Shown: positions 2,598 to 26,487 of the stretch, piece by piece
Position numbering within the stretch: position 1 is the stretch's first letter
Layout of the letters: each line of letters starts with the position of its first letter
From: a virus
Strand: one strand, 5' to 3'
Virus record (IMG/VR): IMGVR_UViG_3300037042_001152
Coordinates: 1 to 26,553 of that record
Length of the DNA stretch: 26,553 bases
Position numbers and translations under genes: made by a program
The notes under the pieces: model-generated
Database searches by the model: none
Told to the model about the DNA's origin: nothing
Seen by the model: only the letters and a program-made list of their open reading frames with translations

Positions 2598-3215
2598 ATG
2601 CTTCTTTTGAATGTTGATTGCCCACCGTTAAAAGTTTGGGTTCACAACCGCCACCTAACGCAGAATGAGGAGGCGACGGGGTACGAAGCTGGTTACTTGT
2701 TTGCTGTACAGAGTTACAAGGGAAGGGCGCTACAATTTCATGTTTTGTTGCAGTCTGGCGCGCATTTTCGACACGTTCCTATTCATTGGTTGTTGTGGCA
2801 GCCGACTGCCAGTGAAATGTATGATCTGGAGCAGTTACAGCTTTGGGACTGTTACAGCTATAAGCCTGTAGTAACTGTTTTTGATTTCCTGCGTGATTAC
2901 GAGTGCCGAGCGATACTAAAAACAAAAACCGAAGTGCCTGCCAAATACTTTTGCACTGTGGACTGGCTTCCTGACAGTGATCAGCAGTCTGGCTATGTTT
3001 TGCAGCCCGACCAAAACAAATGCGCTCATATTCTGCTTTTGAGCACTGGACAGCTGTGCGCTTTGCCTACGAATCGCATAGCTTTTCAAGACGCTTTTTT
3101 TATTGGCAATAGTGGCAATCCCGGCGCTAAGGGATACAAAACTATCGACACAGTTTGGAGCGCAGAAAACAGCGAGCGTTGGTCAGTAGCGGATACGGAC
3201 GAGGTTTTTTACTGA
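2598..3215 (+). CDS. Conserved phage protein of unknown function upstream of TerL
   Basis: A 205-residue protein ending one base into the large terminase start (TGATG). It begins MLLLNVDCPPLKVWVHNRHL, then has a beta-rich body with AGYLFAVQSYKGRALQFHVLL, LEQLQLWDCYSYKP and a C-terminal NRIAFQDAFF. The CPPLKVWV opening and the LQLWDCYSY segment recall a conserved protein found just before large terminase in other podovirus-like and uncultured aquatic phages, which I recognise only loosely. No catalytic motif, signal or membrane segment is seen. The start is not well fixed: the ATG at 2598 has GCGAGG immediately before it, too close for an ideal ribosome-binding site. Confidence 0.6.
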   Translation: MLLLNVDCPPLKVWVHNRHLTQNEEATGYEAGYLFAVQSYKGRALQFHVLLQSGAHFRHVPIHWLLWQPTASEMYDLEQLQLWDCYSYKPVVTVFDFLRDYECRAILKTKTEVPAKYFCTVDWLPDSDQQSGYVLQPDQNKCAHILLLSTGQLCALPTNRIAFQDAFFIGNSGNPGAKGYKTIDTVWSAENSERWSVADTDEVFY

Positions 3216-12080: not shown

Positions 12081-12092
12081 ATGTTTCTTACT

Positions 12093-13235
12093 ATGGCAAA
12101 CACCATAAAAATTCGCCGTAGCACTAGCGCAAGCAGCGTTCCTACAACAACGCAGCTTAGTGAGGGAGAGCTAGCCGTAAATGTTTATGACGGCAAGCTA
12201 TTCTTCAAAAAAGTGCAAAGCGGCACTGAAAGCATTGTTACGCTGCAAGAAGGTGGTTCTAGCGGCATTTCAAGCCTAAATTCGCAGACGGGTTCAACAC
12301 AAACTTTTGCCATTGGCAGCGGCAACAGTGGCGGTCAGCCGTATTGGGCGTCAGCCTCCAACATTCATACGCTTCACCTTCCGAGCGCAACTAACGCTAT
12401 TCGCGGCTTAGTCAGCAATGGCACTCAAATTTTTGGCGGTAGAAAGGATCTTCTAGACGGTTGCACTGTTGGGGACAGTGGCGTGTCCGGCGGAAGGTTA
12501 AGTGTCTACCACGGTGCTGCTACTATTGGACTTTACGTTAAACAAACGTCAGCCAGTCCTACGGCAAATTATTTTTCGTTTGTAAATTCTTCAAATTCTG
12601 CCGTTTGTGCGCTTAACTCAAACGGATGTTTGTTAGTCAATCGAACTTCAGCACCAGTATTCACAAGCGAGAAAATTGCGGTTGGTGCAAGCACTGGTCA
12701 AAACTACATAACGGTCAGCGGTGGAACAACGAGCAACGGTGACGGTTCTGCCCTTGTTGCGCGTGTTGCCGACACAACGATTGTAGCGATTGGCAATTAT
12801 AGCGCCGCATACAGTGGTGGCGCTTACAGTGCTGTGCCTACCCTATATTTTAATGCGACTCCCAAGGTTGTAGGCATTGGCACTGGCGCTGGCACCAACG
12901 CCATGAAATACGACACTACAAACAATCAGTGGACGTATGACACTTCTTCGCTACGTTACAAAGACAATGTACGCAATTCTACCTACGGACTGTCAGCCGT
13001 TCTTGCTATGCAGTCACGGCAATTTTCCTACAAGGACAGTGGGCGCGAGGATGTTGGGTTCATTGCGGAAGAAATGGCAAGCGTTGTGCCGGAGGTTGTC
13101 AGCAAAACTAGCGACGGGTTGCCTGACGGCGTTAGCTACGACAGGTTAGTTTCTGTTCTTTGCAAAGCAATTCAGGAACTGTCAGCGCAAGTGTCCTCTC
13201 TACAAAGTCGGGTAGACGTTTTAGAGGGCACATGA
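12093..13235 (+). CDS. Fibre protein with Mtd-like N-terminus and S74 chaperone C-terminus
   Basis: A 380-residue protein. ATG 12093 is chosen over the in-frame ATG at 12081 because the resulting MANTIKIRRSTSAS matches the first fibre's MANTIRIKRRLTGS, and 12081 lies directly against a hairpin. Residues 58-138 resemble residues 297-376 of the first fibre. The C-terminus (from about 250) is a peptidase S74 intramolecular chaperone: the self-cleaving Ser-Lys pair fits Ser285 and Lys290 (SSLRYKDN), followed by DVGFIAEEMASVVPEVV and YDRLVSVLCKAIQEL. S74 domains trimerise beta-helical fibres and then cut themselves off. This C-terminus closely matches that of the fibre at 23468. Confidence 0.8.
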   Translation: MANTIKIRRSTSASSVPTTTQLSEGELAVNVYDGKLFFKKVQSGTESIVTLQEGGSSGISSLNSQTGSTQTFAIGSGNSGGQPYWASASNIHTLHLPSATNAIRGLVSNGTQIFGGRKDLLDGCTVGDSGVSGGRLSVYHGAATIGLYVKQTSASPTANYFSFVNSSNSAVCALNSNGCLLVNRTSAPVFTSEKIAVGASTGQNYITVSGGTTSNGDGSALVARVADTTIVAIGNYSAAYSGGAYSAVPTLYFNATPKVVGIGTGAGTNAMKYDTTNNQWTYDTSSLRYKDNVRNSTYGLSAVLAMQSRQFSYKDSGREDVGFIAEEMASVVPEVVSKTSDGLPDGVSYDRLVSVLCKAIQELSAQVSSLQSRVDVLEGT

Positions 13236-16692: not shown

Positions 16693-18234
16693 ATGCCGTA
16701 CCAAGGTGTAACAATGCCTCCACCGTCTTTAGGGCTTGATCTAGTCAGCCCTATTGATGGCATGGAACCAGCAGCAGCACTTGAGTTAGTGAATATCTTT
16801 CCAGGCGCAGGGGCTCCCACCGTTCGCCTTGGTTATGAGAATTTCGCTGACTTGGGTACGGCATCACCTATTTTATTTATGCACGAGTATCCGTTGAAAA
16901 ACGGAACCGCGCAGTTGATAGCAGCACAAAACACAGCTTTGTTTTCCGTTAGCGATACAGGAACGGTCACAAACATAAGCAAAGTTGGCGGGTACCTGTC
17001 TGGCTATTGGAACAAGGAGATGTTTGCAGGGAACATTTACTTTGCAAACAATGGGGGCGATGCGCCGCAAGTTTACCAAGGCACAGGGTTAGCAGCTAAC
17101 ATAAGTGTTGGCGGCAGTGGCTATGCCTTGACTGACTTAATAAACATAGCGTCATACCGCCAGCGTTTATACCTCGTTGAGCGCAACACCGCTAAAATGT
17201 GGTATCACGCGACTGAGGGCGCTACCCTAATCTCCGGTGGTGCTGTCCTTACAAGTTATGACTTTCAATACATATTCCGTCGTGGCGGCTATCTTCTTTT
17301 TACTGGTAGCTTTACGAATCAAAAGAATGTGACAAGCCAAGACTTGTTTATGGCTGTGTCGTCGGAAGGCGAGGTAGTTTTCTACACAGGAGCTTCGCCT
17401 GATGATACAGCTTGGGAATTAGTAGCACATTTCATTATTGGCAAGCCGCTCGGTCCTCGCGCATACGTTCGCGTAAACCAAGACGTATTGATTATTACGC
17501 AGCAGGGAATAGTGCCTGTTTCTGTGTTGTTTAGCCAAAGCCCACAGGAGGCTTCCGACACAATTAGTCGTCCGATCAATCCACTGATAAGCCAGTACGC
17601 AACACAAGTTTCCCTTAGTGAGCGATGGAACGGCTTCTTCTGGGCTGCTGGTCGTCGCGTTTACATAATGTTGCCCGACAGCGGCACCACTGCAACACTC
17701 CTAGTTTGGTCATTGGACACAAAAGCATGGACGCAGTTTGCATTGTTTGTTGGTGCTCACTGTTGCTCTAGCTGCAAATTTCTAGACCTGCCGTTTTATG
17801 GCTCTGCAACAGGCATTATTTACCAAGGGGAAAGCGGCTATTCGGATGCTAGTGTCAATGGAGCAGGAGAGTCGATAGAGTTTTCTGCGCGCATGGCGTT
17901 TTCATTTTATGGCAGCAGAGGGAACTACAAAGCGTTTAAGGACATTCGACCGCTAATGCGTGGAAAGCGAGGTTTGACGCTTAACCTTGGCTTGGACACA
18001 GACTTTAAGCGAGCAACTACAGTAACAACAGTTACGACTGCTGCTGGACCATTTACGCCATGGGGATCGCCTTGGGGCAGCCCTTGGTCTACTGACGTTG
18101 AATACGTGTTTGACCGTTTTGCGGTTAAGGGGCAAGGACACTGCGCCGCAATTCGGTTTGGTGGCAGCATTAAAAATACTCCGTTACAACTTTTTGGGTT
18201 CGAAATACGATACGATTTAGGTGGGCAGGTCTAG
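16693..18234 (+). CDS. P22 gp10-like tail hub / DNA-stabilisation protein
   Basis: A 513-residue, nearly all-beta protein. The opening (MPPPSLGLDLVSPIDGMEPA, then NIFPGAGAPTVRLGYENFAD) is typical of the beta-propeller hub proteins that plug the podovirus tail and keep packaged DNA in place. Repeating blade-like stretches follow, such as RQRLYLVERNTAKMWYH and LLVWSLDTKAWTQFALF. Odd points are a Cys cluster (HCCSSCKF near residue 356) and a PWGSPWGSPW repeat near 455. It is followed by internal virion proteins, as expected for this part of the tail. Six bases separate it from the preceding gene, without a clear ribosome-binding site. Confidence 0.75.
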   Translation: MPYQGVTMPPPSLGLDLVSPIDGMEPAAALELVNIFPGAGAPTVRLGYENFADLGTASPILFMHEYPLKNGTAQLIAAQNTALFSVSDTGTVTNISKVGGYLSGYWNKEMFAGNIYFANNGGDAPQVYQGTGLAANISVGGSGYALTDLINIASYRQRLYLVERNTAKMWYHATEGATLISGGAVLTSYDFQYIFRRGGYLLFTGSFTNQKNVTSQDLFMAVSSEGEVVFYTGASPDDTAWELVAHFIIGKPLGPRAYVRVNQDVLIITQQGIVPVSVLFSQSPQEASDTISRPINPLISQYATQVSLSERWNGFFWAAGRRVYIMLPDSGTTATLLVWSLDTKAWTQFALFVGAHCCSSCKFLDLPFYGSATGIIYQGESGYSDASVNGAGESIEFSARMAFSFYGSRGNYKAFKDIRPLMRGKRGLTLNLGLDTDFKRATTVTTVTTAAGPFTPWGSPWGSPWSTDVEYVFDRFAVKGQGHCAAIRFGGSIKNTPLQLFGFEIRYDLGGQV

Positions 18235-20499: not shown

Positions 20500-23466
20500 A
20501 TGGCTGATCTTTCCGCACTTACCGATGAACAACTTTATGCAGCTTTAGCTGCTACGCCTGAACCTGCGCCAACAGCAGCATCGAATTTTTTGGCAACTAC
20601 TTCACCGAGTGCGACAACACCAGACAATTCCACTAGCAGTTCTTTGTTAGATTATTTATCCGGGTTTACCACAAGCACCGGCTCTCCGTCTTTTGCTGGT
20701 GCTAAAATTGGTTACGTGCCAACAGAAGTAACCATGCAAGAACTTAAACCAGTCGTTTCGGAGGCGGCTGGTCTTGGTGGAAGTCTTATCGGCGCAGAAA
20801 TTGGCGCAGGGTATGGAACTTCTGTTGCGCCTTTTCTTGGTCCTTTTGCCCCTGCTGGTCCGTTTATTGGTGCAGGTTTAGGTGGTGCTTTAGGATATTT
20901 AGTGCCGAAAGCTGGCACAGAAATCGCAATAGACGCCGTTACGGGACAGCCGGTTGAAGTTGGTGCTGCATTAAGTGAAGCATTGCCGACTGCCGCTTTG
21001 ACGGGAGGATTGGAAACTGGCACTCGTGTAGGAATGGCAGCATTGCCACCGTCATTACGCACGATTGGCAAAGGACTGGAACTTCTGAGGGCTTTAGGTG
21101 GCAACAAACAGGCACTAGAAAGATTAGCAACGCAAGAGATTGCACGAGCAGCAGGACCAAGCGGGGTCGCTGCAATAGAAACTGCACAAATGATGCCAGA
21201 GCTTTTGACTGGCACTGGTGCCTCAAGACTTACTGCTGCCGAGATAGCGCAAACACCCAACTTGGCGGCGCTACAGCAAAAACAGCGGTTGCTTGAAGCG
21301 GGTAGAACATACCTAGAGCCAACTTTGCAGACTCGTGAATCAGAATTGTTGACTGCACTGAATAAGTTTGGACTTGCGCCTCAACAGGGCGAAATGGCGC
21401 TCGTTATGCAACAGGCAGCGCAAAAACAAGCGGCAGAAAAGAGTGCAAAAGAAGCGGATCTATTGGGGCAGATCGTGCCCGGTGAAGTGCGTAACGTAAC
21501 AAAGATGGAACGTGGCACCGAATTTAGAACACAAATGCAAGCCTTGGAGGATGCCAGCAATAAAAAGGTTAGGGAGGCTTGGGAATTGGTTCCAAAAAAG
21601 ACACAAATTGACGCATCTGTACAGCTTCAGGAAGCGGTAAAATTATACAATTCGTTCGGCACTCTTTCTAAACAAGCTCTAGGTGCAGAAGCAACACGAG
21701 TTGTTAAGCAAATGCAAACTCTAATAGAGAACAAAGTTAAGAAAACAGGCGCAACAAAACCAATTAGCGTTACAGACTGGCTGGATCTTCGCTCTGCTGC
21801 GGGTCGTGCTATGACGGATGCGGATGGCATGAATGAGCCAACAGTTCGTTTAATGAGTTTTGTCCGTGAACAGTTAGACAATGTAGGCGAAACAACGGCT
21901 GCTTCCTTAAAAGAATTTAAGGCGCTTTCAAAGTATCGTGAAGGAATTAGTGAGACGCGACGGCATAAAGAAATGTTTGCCAGAGGCGTTCTTGGGGACG
22001 TTTTAGCAACACGCAGATTCCAGCCAAAACTGAAAGAGAGCCAACTTGTAGACAAAATCTTGCAGTCGCCTGAAAACATAGTGGAGCTTACTGGCAAAAT
22101 TGGCGCGGATAGCGCGGAGATGATTGGGCTTCGCGGCGAAATGGTGAATCGATTAGAGGCTGCTGCTAACCCAACAGAGTTTTTAACTAAGCATCAAGAC
22201 ACATTCATAAAGTTATTTGACCAAGACTTTGGCAAACTTGCTCAATACGCTAATAGTCGTGCTCAGGGCGCACCGCTAGGCGAGTTTCTAAATATTACTG
22301 ACACAATGATCCCATCACGGATCTTTAACGACGCAGAACAAACCAAGCGTTTTGTAACTTCATTTAAGAACACTCCCGCTGTAGATTTTGCGAAAGCACG
22401 ATTTATAAACGAGCGAATTGTAAAAGGTGATGCTGTTGGCAACCTTGCAAAGAACGAACAAATTGCTCGCAACTTGTTTGGCGAACAATACGGAGAGTTG
22501 GAAAGTGTTGTACGAGATTTACAGCTTTTTCGCACACCGCAACAGCTAGAAAACTTAGCAAGTCGCGGTCAGAGCATTACAGCACAGCGACTTACAACTT
22601 TAGGGCAGCTTACAGAGTTTAGGAACATTGCAAAGGCAGCACAAAGCAACGGAACGTCAGTCGGGGCAATTATTGGAGCTGTTACAGGAGGCTCTGAAGG
22701 TGGCGTAAGTGGTGCTTTGCTTGGCTATTGGATGCGTCATGTTGCTGGCATGAGTTTGGAACAATATGAAACCTTGATGGCAAAAATGCTGGCAGATCCC
22801 AGTATGATAAAGTTTGCGTCAGAGCAGCCAAACAAGCAGAACATAGAAAAATTCCTAGGTAATGCAGTACGATCTGGCTATTTTGCGGCACGACTAGACG
22901 ATGCTGATGCTTCAAACAATTTGCAGCCTCAAAGCACAACGCCAGTAGGCAAGTCGCTATCGCAAGCGTTGCCAGTAAACACTTCGCGGTTAGAATCAAT
23001 GAGCGATGCTGAAATAGAAGCGTTGCTAAACCCAACGTCAACAACCGCAACAAAAAATGACGTGCAAGCATTGGTCACAGGTCGCAGCAAACTTGTGCAA
23101 GCAGTAGTTGCTCAAGAGAGCGGAGGCAACGCAAAAGCTAAAAGCCCTGCTGGTGCCGTAGGCTTGATGCAACTTATGCCAGCAACAGCCAAAGCATACG
23201 GTGTTACAGACCGTACAGATCCACAACAGAGCTTGGATGCTGGTGAGAAATATCTTAGGGATCTTTACAAACAGTTTGACGATGTAGAGCTGACGCTAGC
23301 TGCTTATAATTGGGGACCGGGCAACGTGCGTAAGGCTCTTAAAAAGATTAAGGCAAAGGGTCAAGCAGAAACGTGGGACAACGTGTTGCGCTTTGCAAGC
23401 GTTCCGAATGAGACAAGCAACTATGTTGCTAAGGTGTTGAACAACTATCAAAAATTAGAGGGCTAA
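20500..23466 (+). CDS. Internal virion protein with C-terminal lytic transglycosylase domain
   Basis: A 988-residue protein. Residues about 85-155 contain Gly/Ala-rich hydrophobic stretches (GAEIGAGYGTSVAPFLGPFA), then a long helical body. The C-terminal 130 residues are a soluble lytic transglycosylase (SLT) domain: catalytic Glu873 in VVAQESGGN, the GLMQLMPATAKAYGV motif, and AAYNWGPGNV with Tyr936. This enzyme cuts peptidoglycan and in podoviruses opens the wall locally so that the ejected proteins and DNA can cross. In T7 gp16 the SLT is at the N-terminus; here it is at the C-terminus. The start (ATG 20500) has no ribosome-binding site. It is followed directly by a tail fibre gene. Confidence 0.85.
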   Translation: MADLSALTDEQLYAALAATPEPAPTAASNFLATTSPSATTPDNSTSSSLLDYLSGFTTSTGSPSFAGAKIGYVPTEVTMQELKPVVSEAAGLGGSLIGAEIGAGYGTSVAPFLGPFAPAGPFIGAGLGGALGYLVPKAGTEIAIDAVTGQPVEVGAALSEALPTAALTGGLETGTRVGMAALPPSLRTIGKGLELLRALGGNKQALERLATQEIARAAGPSGVAAIETAQMMPELLTGTGASRLTAAEIAQTPNLAALQQKQRLLEAGRTYLEPTLQTRESELLTALNKFGLAPQQGEMALVMQQAAQKQAAEKSAKEADLLGQIVPGEVRNVTKMERGTEFRTQMQALEDASNKKVREAWELVPKKTQIDASVQLQEAVKLYNSFGTLSKQALGAEATRVVKQMQTLIENKVKKTGATKPISVTDWLDLRSAAGRAMTDADGMNEPTVRLMSFVREQLDNVGETTAASLKEFKALSKYREGISETRRHKEMFARGVLGDVLATRRFQPKLKESQLVDKILQSPENIVELTGKIGADSAEMIGLRGEMVNRLEAAANPTEFLTKHQDTFIKLFDQDFGKLAQYANSRAQGAPLGEFLNITDTMIPSRIFNDAEQTKRFVTSFKNTPAVDFAKARFINERIVKGDAVGNLAKNEQIARNLFGEQYGELESVVRDLQLFRTPQQLENLASRGQSITAQRLTTLGQLTEFRNIAKAAQSNGTSVGAIIGAVTGGSEGGVSGALLGYWMRHVAGMSLEQYETLMAKMLADPSMIKFASEQPNKQNIEKFLGNAVRSGYFAARLDDADASNNLQPQSTTPVGKSLSQALPVNTSRLESMSDAEIEALLNPTSTTATKNDVQALVTGRSKLVQAVVAQESGGNAKAKSPAGAVGLMQLMPATAKAYGVTDRTDPQQSLDAGEKYLRDLYKQFDDVELTLAAYNWGPGNVRKALKKIKAKGQAETWDNVLRFASVPNETSNYVAKVLNNYQKLEG

Positions 23467-23467
23467 C

Positions 23468-24892
23468 ATGGGCTGGTCAGGTGGAACGTACAGAAAGGGA
23501 AACTACGCCTCAAACGGTTGGACGGGCGATGCTTCTCTCGGCATAGGCATCCAGGCGGGGCTCCATGACGATCAAGACGATGACTTTGAAACAGGCATTA
23601 ACACGTGCTTAACCAAGGATGGCACTAACACTGCCACTGCTAACCTTCCAATGGGAGGTTTCAAGCACCTAAACATTGCTAACGCTACAGCTCGCAATAA
23701 CTATGCTGCGGCTGGTCAGGTACAGGACAGTGCGTTTATCTGGTGCGGCACTTCTGCTGGCACTGCAAACGCGCAGACGCTTACTCCTACTCCTGCGATT
23801 ACTGCCTACGCTGCTGGTCAGGTGTTTCGTTTTATTGCGGGGTTTACGCCGACTAGCACATTGACGATTGCGGTTAGCGGTTTGGCTGCGAAAAGTGTTT
23901 TGGCTGAACAGGTTGGCACAGCTCTTGGCAATATAGCTGTTTATGCCGGAATGATCTGTGACGTTATCTATGACGGCACTTCTTTTGTTTTGCGTAACGG
24001 CTTTGGCTCAAACATTCAGTTAGCTGATTTCGCCCTTGGCGCAAGCTCACGTGCTTTGCAGTTTTTCAAGAGTCGTGGAACGTCTTACCCAACCAATGCA
24101 ATAGTTGCTGCTGACGATTCTCTTGGCGTTATAAATTTTTGGGGCGCAAACGGCACTGGTTATGATCGAGCCGCATTTATAGGTGGTTTTGTTGATGGCA
24201 CTCCTGGCGGCTCTAACGACATGCCAGCAAGAATAACTTTTGCTACAGCGCCAGACGGTTCTGCAACAGCTGTTGAACGGATGCGCTTGAAGTCAACAGG
24301 TCAGCTTCTTATTGGTCAAACGACTGCTGCTGGGACTGAAGAAATTTTAGCTGCTGGTACTGGTACTGGACAGCAAGTTGTATCTGTCAATGGTGGCAGT
24401 TCAGGCACTAACGGTGGTGGAAGCTTCACAGTTCGCAACGGCGGTACGGCAATACTAGCTATTGGAGGAAGAAGTGCCATTATTGGCGGCGCTTATGATG
24501 CAACACCACAGCTCTATTTTAATGCCACACCAAAAGTTCTCGGCATCACATCTGGTGCTGGTGATCGTTTTATGAAGTGGTCTACCACTACTACTTCGTG
24601 GACCTATGATACTTCTTCCGAGCGATTCAAAGAAAACATTGAGGACTTGCATTACGGATTAGAGACGGTCAAGCAGCTTCGTAGCAGAGAGTTTGATTAT
24701 CTTGGCGAAGATGCTCGGCGGGACATAGGTTTTATTGCTGAAGAAGTTGTAAAGGTAGTGCCGGAAGTTGTTGGACTAGACCTTGAAGGCAAGCCAGAAG
24801 CGGTGATGTATGATCGGCTAACTTCGTTGCTTTGCAAAGCCATACAAGAGCTTGCTGCCAAGGTAGAGGCGCTTGAGGCGAAGGTAAAGTAA
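23468..24892 (+). CDS. Tail fibre with podovirus-type N-terminus and S74 chaperone
   Basis: A 474-residue protein. The N-terminus (GWSGGTYRKGNYASNGWTGD, LHDDQDDDFETGINTCLTKD, then ATANLPMGGFKHLNIANATA) is the well-known virion-binding start of many podovirus tail fibres. The middle is beta-rich and Gly/Thr-rich. The C-terminus is a peptidase S74 chaperone: Ser383/Lys388 (SSERFKEN) fit the self-cleaving pair, then DIGFIAEEVVKVVPEVV and YDRLTSLLCKAIQELAAKVE. It recognises the host surface; the S74 domain trimerises it and is removed. The last 150 residues are closely similar to the fibre at 12093. Stop and next start overlap by one base. Confidence 0.85.
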   Translation: MGWSGGTYRKGNYASNGWTGDASLGIGIQAGLHDDQDDDFETGINTCLTKDGTNTATANLPMGGFKHLNIANATARNNYAAAGQVQDSAFIWCGTSAGTANAQTLTPTPAITAYAAGQVFRFIAGFTPTSTLTIAVSGLAAKSVLAEQVGTALGNIAVYAGMICDVIYDGTSFVLRNGFGSNIQLADFALGASSRALQFFKSRGTSYPTNAIVAADDSLGVINFWGANGTGYDRAAFIGGFVDGTPGGSNDMPARITFATAPDGSATAVERMRLKSTGQLLIGQTTAAGTEEILAAGTGTGQQVVSVNGGSSGTNGGGSFTVRNGGTAILAIGGRSAIIGGAYDATPQLYFNATPKVLGITSGAGDRFMKWSTTTTSWTYDTSSERFKENIEDLHYGLETVKQLRSREFDYLGEDARRDIGFIAEEVVKVVPEVVGLDLEGKPEAVMYDRLTSLLCKAIQELAAKVEALEAKVK

Positions 24893-25281
24893 TGCACTTG
24901 CGGCTTGTGCGAGTAGCAGAGCATAACGACGCCACTCTTGGGGTACTGTGCCTCAATGAGCGACCTATGTTTGTTACGCTTGAGGACAAGTGGCGTGACA
25001 ACGAGCGCAACGTGTCCTGCATACCGAAGGGCAGCTACGTTGTGGCGTTGCACAAGTCGCCAAAATTCGGCAAGTGCTACCAGGTTGTGAACGTGCCTAA
25101 CCGTTCTGACATTCTTATTCATGCTGGCAACACGCATGTAGACACTCAAGGCTGCATTTTGCTTGGGATGATGTATGGATCAATGGGAACCGCAAACGCG
25201 ATTCTGTCGAGCCGTACAGCGGTCACAGCGTTTATGCACGAGATGAATGGCGTAGAGGCAGCAACGCTTGAGGTTGTATGA
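24892..25281 (+). CDS. DUF5675 protein, possible lysis-linked enzyme
   Basis: A 129-residue protein that opens the lysis-like cassette, sharing the last base of the fibre gene. It matches DUF5675 as I remember it: LRLVRVAEHNDATLGVL, FVTLEDKWRDNERNVSCIPKG and DILIHAGNTHVDTQGCILLG. The last segment, with His77, His82, Thr85, Gly87 and Cys88, resembles the His...(S/T)-x-G-Cys active site of YkuD L,D-transpeptidases, so action on peptidoglycan is possible. DUF5675 genes are often next to phage lysis genes, and no characterised activity is known to me. No signal peptide is visible, so a holin or other partner would be needed to reach the wall. Confidence 0.7.
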   Translation: MHLRLVRVAEHNDATLGVLCLNERPMFVTLEDKWRDNERNVSCIPKGSYVVALHKSPKFGKCYQVVNVPNRSDILIHAGNTHVDTQGCILLGMMYGSMGTANAILSSRTAVTAFMHEMNGVEAATLEVV

Positions 25282-25517
25282 CGGGCGGTGATGTTACAGA
25301 GCTTCGGTATTGGCTAGACCTTGGGATCAAGGGCATTATTGGAATAGTGGTTAGCGTAGTTGGAATGGACTATCGGCACGTTAAGAACACCTTGCAGGAC
25401 TTAGAGCAGAGCAAGTACCAGGTTGCCATGCAGGTAGAAGTTTTGCAGGTTGAGTTGTCTGGCATTAAGCAAAGGTTGGACAAGATAGACGAGAAGCTAG
25501 ACCGGGCGCTTCGATGA
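25278..25517 (+). CDS. Small membrane-anchored coiled-coil protein (spanin/holin-like)
   Basis: A 79-residue protein with one likely transmembrane helix at about 11-30 (LGIKGIIGIVVSVVGMDYRH) and a C-terminal coiled coil (QVELSGIKQRLDKIDEKLDR). It overlaps its neighbours on both sides by 4 nt (ATGA). An N-terminal membrane anchor plus a helical rod is the layout of inner-membrane spanins, and similar small proteins are found in many podovirus late regions. A lipoprotein outer spanin was not seen, so a different role, such as a holin partner or virion protein, cannot be ruled out. Confidence 0.55.
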   Translation: MTGGDVTELRYWLDLGIKGIIGIVVSVVGMDYRHVKNTLQDLEQSKYQVAMQVEVLQVELSGIKQRLDKIDEKLDRALR

Positions 25518-26311
25518 GAAGTTTTTTGTTGTGGCTACTTTTAGTAGGCACAGCAAACGCGCAAGGCGTTAGTTACATAGGCTTATGCAATTCGACCTGG
25601 GATTGCGATGCAACGCTTAAAACATTTCGGGATCGTCCAGCGGTAGTCGGCTGGCTAGAAAACTCTTTTGGAAATAGGTGTGTTTGTGCAGACAGAATCT
25701 TGCGTGAGCCGACTCGTGAGAAAATTATCCGGGTTCACTTGGCTAACTCGCCGTGTTTACGAAACAAGCGTTGCGGTAGCCATGATCTCTTTTTCAATCA
25801 TACGGTCAAAACTGCGAACCAGGAAATAAAGCGACCGCGTTCTCGGCTACGAAAGAAATTCAATCGGATTGTCACTCGGTTTGCAGAGCGGTTAGCTGCG
25901 GCTAGGGGAGCAGTGACTTGCTACGTGTCACCTTGTTTGGAGTGTGATCTTGATGACAAGTCTCGAAAGATTTTGCTTGGCATTGTACGTGAGCGTTTGC
26001 CTAGCTGCGTTCCTGTCGATAATCCTTTTGGAGCTGCTTGCTTACGAGGCTTCGTGTGTGAAAAGCATGGACCCGATAGACCTAAGCGTGAGCCGTGTAT
26101 CTACGACTTTGACGGCACTGAGGCTGAATCAGTGATTGACTTGCGGCAGACGGCTCGTGAGACTAGGGCTTGCGACTTGCGGTTTTATTGGTCGCACTGG
26201 ATGAATTGCAACACGGTGGGCGGAGCGTTTGTGCCACCTATGGAGCGTGAGTGCAAGGCAACAGGCAAGATGATGCAAAACGCAGGAGACAGAGCATGGG
26301 ACCATTTGTAG
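25514..26311 (+). CDS. Secreted cysteine-rich protein of unknown function (lysis cassette)
   Basis: A 265-residue protein with a good Sec-type signal peptide (MRSFLLWLLLVGTANAQG, cleavage likely after ANA, residue 16). The mature part holds 16 cysteines, an even number, suggesting many disulfides formed in the periplasm. SPC appears twice, in HLANSPCLRNKRCG and CYVSPCLECDLDDK. Alternating strand-like and helix-like stretches hint at an alpha/beta, perhaps barrel, fold, which would fit a glycoside hydrolase acting on the wall, but no catalytic signature is recognised. It lies between a coiled-coil membrane protein and a holin-like gene, where an endolysin is expected. Function is not established. 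Confidence 0.6.
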   Translation: MRSFLLWLLLVGTANAQGVSYIGLCNSTWDCDATLKTFRDRPAVVGWLENSFGNRCVCADRILREPTREKIIRVHLANSPCLRNKRCGSHDLFFNHTVKTANQEIKRPRSRLRKKFNRIVTRFAERLAAARGAVTCYVSPCLECDLDDKSRKILLGIVRERLPSCVPVDNPFGAACLRGFVCEKHGPDRPKREPCIYDFDGTEAESVIDLRQTARETRACDLRFYWSHWMNCNTVGGAFVPPMERECKATGKMMQNAGDRAWDHL

Positions 26312-26487
26312 GGTCGTTGGTGCGGCACTTGTTGTCGCTAGTGGCTGGTGGCTTGTTTGCCATTGGTGTGGGTGACGCTGAAGTGGACAAGCTGGCAGAG
26401 GCAGTGACGCCTGTTGTGTCGGGCGCTATTCTTTACGGCGTAAGCCAGGTTTGGTCGATTAAGGACAAGAAGAAGAACTTGTTCTAG
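26296..26487 (+). CDS. Small holin-like protein
   Basis: A 63-residue protein. ATG at 26296 is chosen over 26251 because AGGAGA (26283-26288) lies at the correct distance and the extra residues of the longer form are a shadow of the upstream gene. It has two likely membrane helices, about residues 9-22 (VRHLLSLVAGGLFAIG) and 37-50 (VVSGAILYGVSQVW), separated by a short acidic loop (GDAEVDKLAEA) and ending in a basic tail (KDKKKNLF). This looks like small phage holins of the Pam3-gp28 type, which form holes in the inner membrane at lysis. Overlap with the previous gene is 16 nt. Confidence 0.65.
   Translation: MGPFVGSLVRHLLSLVAGGLFAIGVGDAEVDKLAEAVTPVVSGAILYGVSQVWSIKDKKKNLF

Follow-up and report, generated by a model that had tools for sequence, protein, structure and literature searches.

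Four consecutive genes occupy positions 24892 to 26487 of a 26.5-kb virus record (IMG/VR IMGVR_UViG_3300037042_001152), whose entire 26,553 nt form the window of this study. All lie on the plus strand as overlapping or coupled open reading frames (ORFs), the second sharing ATGA overlaps with both flanking genes:

24892..25281, + strand: DUF5675 protein, 129 aa, without a signal peptide; predicted cytoplasmic endolysin with an L,D-transpeptidase (LDT) fold
25278..25517, + strand: TM-coil protein, 79 aa, with an N-terminal membrane segment (hydrophobic stretch) and a coiled coil
25514..26311, + strand: 16-Cys protein, 265 aa, exported, predicted (beta/alpha)8 barrel; leader at about 25514-25561
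26296..26487, + strand: holin-like protein, 63 aa, with a near-threshold Phage_holin_10 match

An original prediction, made from the letters of the window, had read this region as a lysis-like cassette without a classical endolysin, and its four overlapping genes are confirmed: DUF5675, a membrane coiled coil, a 16-Cys protein with a leader, and a holin-like ORF. We propose that they form a late lysis module in which an LDT-fold endolysin is helped by an exported barrel, an explanation that we regard, taken as a whole, as probable.

Searches of IMG/VR gathered relatives on about 75 distinct contigs (several loci share one contig), and we restricted synteny counts to relatives with enough sequence around the locus. 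The DUF5675 and TM-coil genes lie upstream of the 16-Cys gene in all 158 such loci, and the holin-like gene lies downstream of it in 156 of 159. As the order is kept across these contigs and 16 of 16 cysteines are invariant in 78 distinct sequences of the third protein, the arrangement goes far beyond chance, and the data support a real, highly conserved lysis cassette that lacks a classical endolysin. It belongs to a clade of uncultured tailed phages with a terminase/portal/SLT/S74 gene order and genomes of about 33-37 kb, four of which are probably complete, having end repeats of 123-127 bp. The order common to all relatives with room is SLT protein, S74 tail fiber, DUF5675, TM-coil, 16-Cys, and holin-like; opposite-strand genes (RecT and others) converge on the 3' end of the cassette. 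We place the start of the holin-like gene at ATG 26296 (63 aa), not GTG 26251, because most relatives use it (61-63 aa) and AGGAG lies just upstream; from there the gene overlaps the 16-Cys gene by 16 nt. Its product scores 26.6 bits against Phage_holin_10 (PF23987, the Pam3 gp28 family), for which the gathering score is 27.

The first protein of the cassette belongs to Pfam DUF5675 (PF18925; 114.4 bits, E = 3e-33, against a gathering score of 26.7 bits), a family without an assigned function that is rarely named in the literature we searched and that is represented in 198 phage records, ranging from 5-kb microviruses to crAss-like phages. The His...T-x-G-C motif that the original prediction had likened to YkuD enzymes is real: His77 (25120-25122) and Cys88 (25153-25155), the latter closing T85-Q-G-C88 (T-H-G-C in most clade members), are invariant in 76 distinct clade sequences and likewise in Vibrio, Salinibacter, Microcystis, crAss-like, and microvirus homologs. 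In alignments with E. coli LdtB and LdtE, both residues fall on the catalytic His and Cys. The comparison with YkuD that had been suggested was made by structure prediction, using an AlphaFold2 model built on an alignment of 33 clade sequences (pLDDT 85, pTM 0.82), whose Foldseek candidates were realigned structurally against Protein Data Bank (PDB) entries and kept at Z ≥ 2. Among the 34 entries kept, the top 32 all have the LDT fold (Z 6.4-8.7) and include LdtMt5, Pgp2, LdtMt2, DpaA, and Tlde1a; the best is LdtMt5 (Z 8.7, 2.6 Å over 98 residues), as against Z 2.6 for the best non-LDT match. At the sequence level, the sole recurrent links to other Pfam families are weak ones, to Tlde1_dom in 23 of 33 members and to YkuD in 10 of 33 (best E 0.009), and one crAss-like homolog already carries the annotation “transpeptidase catalytic domain protein.” The model thus supports a predicted YkuD/LDT fold with a catalytic His and Cys.

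How closely the protein resembles known members of that fold can be stated more narrowly. YkuD/LDT enzymes (LdtMt2, LdtMt5, E. coli LdtB) and DpaA share with it the predicted core fold, the catalytic His, and [ST]-x-G-C, whereas the host enzymes have a longer His-Cys spacing and export signals of their own. PF03734 (YkuD) gives no match to the window protein at E ≤ 10 and stays short of its cut-off in the relatives (best 0.0088), and in place of the canonical His-x(14-17)-[ST]HGC, just 7 residues separate H77 and T85. Because both the YkuD spacing and a score above the Pfam cut-off are lacking, we class DUF5675 as LDT-like rather than as a YkuD member. A second comparison is with Tlde1a (PF10908), a Salmonella effector of the type VI secretion system (T6SS), which has an LDT-like fold and a similarly short His-Cys spacing (10 vs 11); it differs in being T6SS-delivered and in having a capping subdomain and two disulfides, whereas the DUF5675 protein is cytoplasmic, pared down to a minimum, and encoded in a holin cassette. 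Separately, a 5-kb circular Microviridae genome (L106:7-384) encodes a DUF5675 protein that is 49% identical and may be a lysis gene, given the small genome.

The strongest functional argument for an endolysin role is synteny in other phages. In Mu, the order is C, endolysin (lys), Rz, gp24, DUF2730, gp26, and terminase small subunit; in Vibrio phage martha 12B12, it is C, a small exported protein, DUF5675, a 91-aa protein, a 196-aa protein with a hydrophobic segment, DksA, DUF2730, one gene, and terminase small subunit. (The small exported protein directly 5' of DUF5675, at L129:23639-24097, is of no recognized family.) HP1 has tail tube, holin, endolysin, Rz, orf26, and tape measure, if orf27 is read as the tape measure from its position and size, and Vibrio phage 10N.286.45.B12_PE001 has tail tube, TraR, DUF5675, a 173-aa transmembrane (TM) protein, a 92-aa TM-coil protein, an orf26-like gene, and tape measure. 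In these cultured phages, DUF5675 occupies the exact position of the Mu and HP1 lysozyme genes. A lytic podovirus shows the order TM-coil, DUF5675, small TM protein, and a TM protein is found within two genes of DUF5675 in 37 of 40 further loci; counted by neighbor, 66/159 are TM proteins against a background of 36/320 (Fisher p = 2e-13, for 40 loci that are related to each other). As with an endolysin gene, DUF5675 thus lies in a lysis cassette or slot adjoining a holin, the holin match being just below cut-off.

These slot phages were screened with single Pfam families, as the general Pfam/PHROG scans list the first 25 families. Phage_lysozyme (PF00959), which did match in the controls Mu and HP1, gave no match in seven DUF5675 phages outside the clade nor in nine clade records. 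Amidase_2 (PF01510) and M15_4 (PF13539) had no match in the DUF5675 phages screened, nor Hydrolase_2 (PF07486) in the slot phages; searches with PF00182 and PF05838 were uninformative, as no control matched. Given the predicted LDT fold, the invariant H77/C88, the lysozyme slot, and the lack of a standard endolysin match, DUF5675 is most likely a cytoplasmic, holin-released endolysin. Fold model and synteny thus lend good support to DUF5675 as the likely one of the two wall-degrading candidates originally proposed.

The window does encode one muralytic domain, in the first of two genes upstream of the cassette:

20500..23466, + strand: presumed virion protein, 988 aa, with a C-terminal SLT lytic transglycosylase domain (residues 863-956)
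23468..24892, + strand: tail-fiber-like protein with a C-terminal Peptidase_S74 chaperone, always directly 5' of the cassette

The earlier statement that no known endolysin family is present accordingly stands for the cassette and fails for the window, since the 988-aa protein has an SLT domain (PF01464, E = 6e-29). This domain, encoded in 14/14 clade contigs searched, is probably used at entry. Elsewhere in the genome, where a standard endolysin was to be looked for, none was found: in two end-repeated clade genomes, SLT, on the virion protein, is the only muralytic Pfam domain among the matches listed (best 25 of 27 families). Lysis by the virion-protein transglycosylase or by an unrecognized enzyme, with DUF5675 incidental, would draw on this universal presence and on an extra membrane-anchored SLT gene in two contigs. 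We consider it very improbable, as the domain sits on a frame of roughly 700-1100 aa within the structural gene block and PF01464 has no match in any of the seven DUF5675 phages outside the clade. The extra genes, found in the early block of 2/14 clade contigs searched (L112:2396-2884 and L115:2263-2733), encode small SLT transglycosylases with an N-terminal membrane segment, beside a small lipoprotein-like ORF and an exported protein, a setting that resembles the VirB1-type arrangement. Another candidate, the 513-aa presumed tail protein at 16693-18234, bears the label “amidase” through PHROG 5107; the label looks doubtful, and we do not count the protein as an endolysin because Pfam shows no amidase in it.

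The third cassette protein has exactly 16 cysteines, all in its mature part. Its leader is short and strongly hydrophobic and ends in A-x-A (A16 in 38/42), which suggests a normal, cleavable Sec signal; on our reading it is removed and the mature protein resides in the periplasm. In one clade contig (L009:6001-6825), the gene is interrupted by a stop codon, through sequencing error or decay. Invariant cysteines in the mature part fit structural disulfides rather than a switch. With such a leader and nothing that points to a disulfide isomerization switch, the signal-arrest-release (SAR)-type, disulfide-dependent activation raised in the original prediction was not borne out.

The structural model of this protein (pLDDT 91.5, pTM 0.89) has eight strands alternating with helices, which makes an exported (beta/alpha)8 barrel a high-confidence prediction. 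Its significant Foldseek matches are glycosidases (E 5e-4), and the best realigned structures are mannanases of glycoside hydrolase family 5 (GH5; Z 14.6). In (beta/alpha)8 barrels, the C-terminal ends of the strands form the active-site side, and 14 of 27 conserved polar residues of the model lie there (p = 5e-5); E143 (25940-25942), D198 (26105-26107), D200, D169, E183, H185, and H75 are invariant. GH5 and other clan GH-A barrels share with the model the (beta/alpha)8 fold, a Glu after strand 4, a His after strand 3, and a Trp after strand 8. They differ from the 16-Cys protein in having an Asn-Glu pair at strand 4, where it has L142-E143, and a Glu at strand 7, where it has Asp (D198/D200), as well as in its 16 cysteines and in the absence of a sequence match. 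Because the acids depart from the GH-A pattern, we do not file the protein in that clan. No significant match to a muralytic family appears in Pfam or PHROG for 42 members of the family, and PDB profile searches yielded nothing meaningful for the barrel and nothing at all for DUF5675. The family counts over 160 viral stretches; it was found neither in 50,697 phage records, the named DUF5675 phages outside the clade among them, nor in a bacterial and archaeal genome collection, and its close structural relatives among viruses are just three uncharacterized proteins, all from uncultured phages (TM-score of at most 0.84). It is a conserved protein family whose function is likely enzymatic; on the strength of the model, the protein probably acts on a glycan and represents an undescribed enzyme family. 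The idea that the Cys-rich protein is an enzyme gains a predicted exported TIM barrel with glycosidase-like neighbors and lacks a muralytic family match.

Could this barrel be the true endolysin, as a secreted muramidase- or glucosaminidase-like enzyme, with DUF5675 an accessory wall modifier? Its export, its predicted resemblance to several glycosidases, its invariant acids on the catalytic face, and the fact that it is never missing in the clade would agree with this. We judge it improbable nonetheless, given that no named phage record has a homolog, including the DUF5675 phages outside the clade, where DUF5675 alone fills the lysozyme slot; that a freely exported muramidase would act prematurely unless regulated; and that no muralytic family is matched. 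A barrel acting outside lysis, on envelope or surface glycans, for example by freeing progeny from debris or blocking re-adsorption, is somewhat unlikely; its Sec signal, glycosidase-like fold, and confinement to one phage clade suit such a role; what speaks against it is that, in each locus, its gene stands between the TM-coil and holin genes in translational coupling.

In the lysis module that we favor, DUF5675 would be made without a signal and fold like an LDT catalytic domain. The holin-like protein would open the inner membrane and so let DUF5675 reach the wall and attack peptide stems via His77/Cys88; the bond cut may most plausibly be the one after meso-diaminopimelate (L,D-endo- or carboxypeptidase activity). 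In this step, the TM-coil protein probably takes part at the membrane, perhaps as a holin partner, a releasin-like protein, or an inner-membrane spanin-like protein. The 16-Cys protein would leave the cytoplasm through Sec, fold into a barrel that about eight disulfides hold rigid and whose acids face the active-site side, and most likely cut an envelope glycan and aid lysis.

Several observations weigh against this explanation. Plain Foldseek of the DUF5675 model returned no significant match, the LDT entries appearing only upon realignment. The hhalign comparison of DUF5675 with five E. coli LDT-fold proteins (shallow profiles) is weak, its best local match being the active-site segment (P 0.017 vs 0.12 for a barrel control). 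Canonical LDTs have a longer His-Cys spacing than the 11 of DUF5675, with 16 in E. coli LdtB and 18 in LdtMt2. In Salinibacter M31CC-1, a protein with a second wall hydrolase domain (Hydrolase_2) is encoded in addition to DUF5675. TIM barrels are so common that similarity to them alone shows no substrate. An outer spanin, sought as a lipobox ORF in or beside the cassette, is nowhere consistently placed and is lacking altogether in 50/62 distinct loci, nor is any embedded outer-spanin ORF conserved, which leaves outer-membrane disruption unexplained. A tentative version of two-enzyme lysis, which we rate as unlikely, would fill that gap: a holin-released LDT-fold peptidase would cut stems, and a pre-exported eight-disulfide TIM-barrel glycosidase of a new family would cut glycan strands or another envelope glycan in place of the missing outer spanin. 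Finally, the known toxins with an LDT fold, Tlde1a among them, work by trimming or editing stems and leave crosslinks alone, so that lysis by such an enzyme by itself is not a given. Tlde1a attacks tetrapeptide stems and has a His-Cys spacing of 10 (H121, C131) (PMC9638812). If DUF5675 likewise trimmed or edited stem peptides without crosslink hydrolysis, so that the growing wall fails, its nearest weak Pfam link (Tlde1_dom) and the matching spacing (PMC9638812) would be accounted for; we find this quite unlikely, as its gene replaces true, fast wall-cutting lysozymes at two unrelated positions.

An LDT-like protein of martha 12B12 was already proposed as an endolysin, in one sentence of a 2022 mBio paper on Mu lysis, on the basis of synteny and a weak HHpred match to an L,D-transpeptidase (PMC9239132), and for that phage the idea is therefore not new. 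By our reading, the protein belongs to the same family as the window DUF5675, its gene lying in the Mu lys slot. The proposal did not name DUF5675 and came without a structure or family survey (PMC9239132), and the window cassette adds an exported barrel in a different phage lineage. What is new here is the barrel protein, together with the application of the idea to DUF5675 as a family, backed by structural evidence and by synteny in more phages. YkuD is a rare catalytic class among phage lytic proteins, with 10 cases in PhaLP (PMC8310338). A testable function is now proposed for DUF5675; should it indeed be an endolysin, a lysis enzyme is assigned to many phages that had seemed to have none, and the LDT fold takes its place among the endolysin folds of Gram-negative phages and ceases to be an oddity there.

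Two further features of the window lie outside the cassette. Both tail-fiber-like genes (12081-13235 and 23468-24892) close with very similar S74-type chaperones, which suggests paralogous fibers. A 205-aa gene (2598-3215; PHROG “ferredoxin”) lies just 5' of the terminase on the late strand, and in several relatives it is found in the opposite-strand early block.

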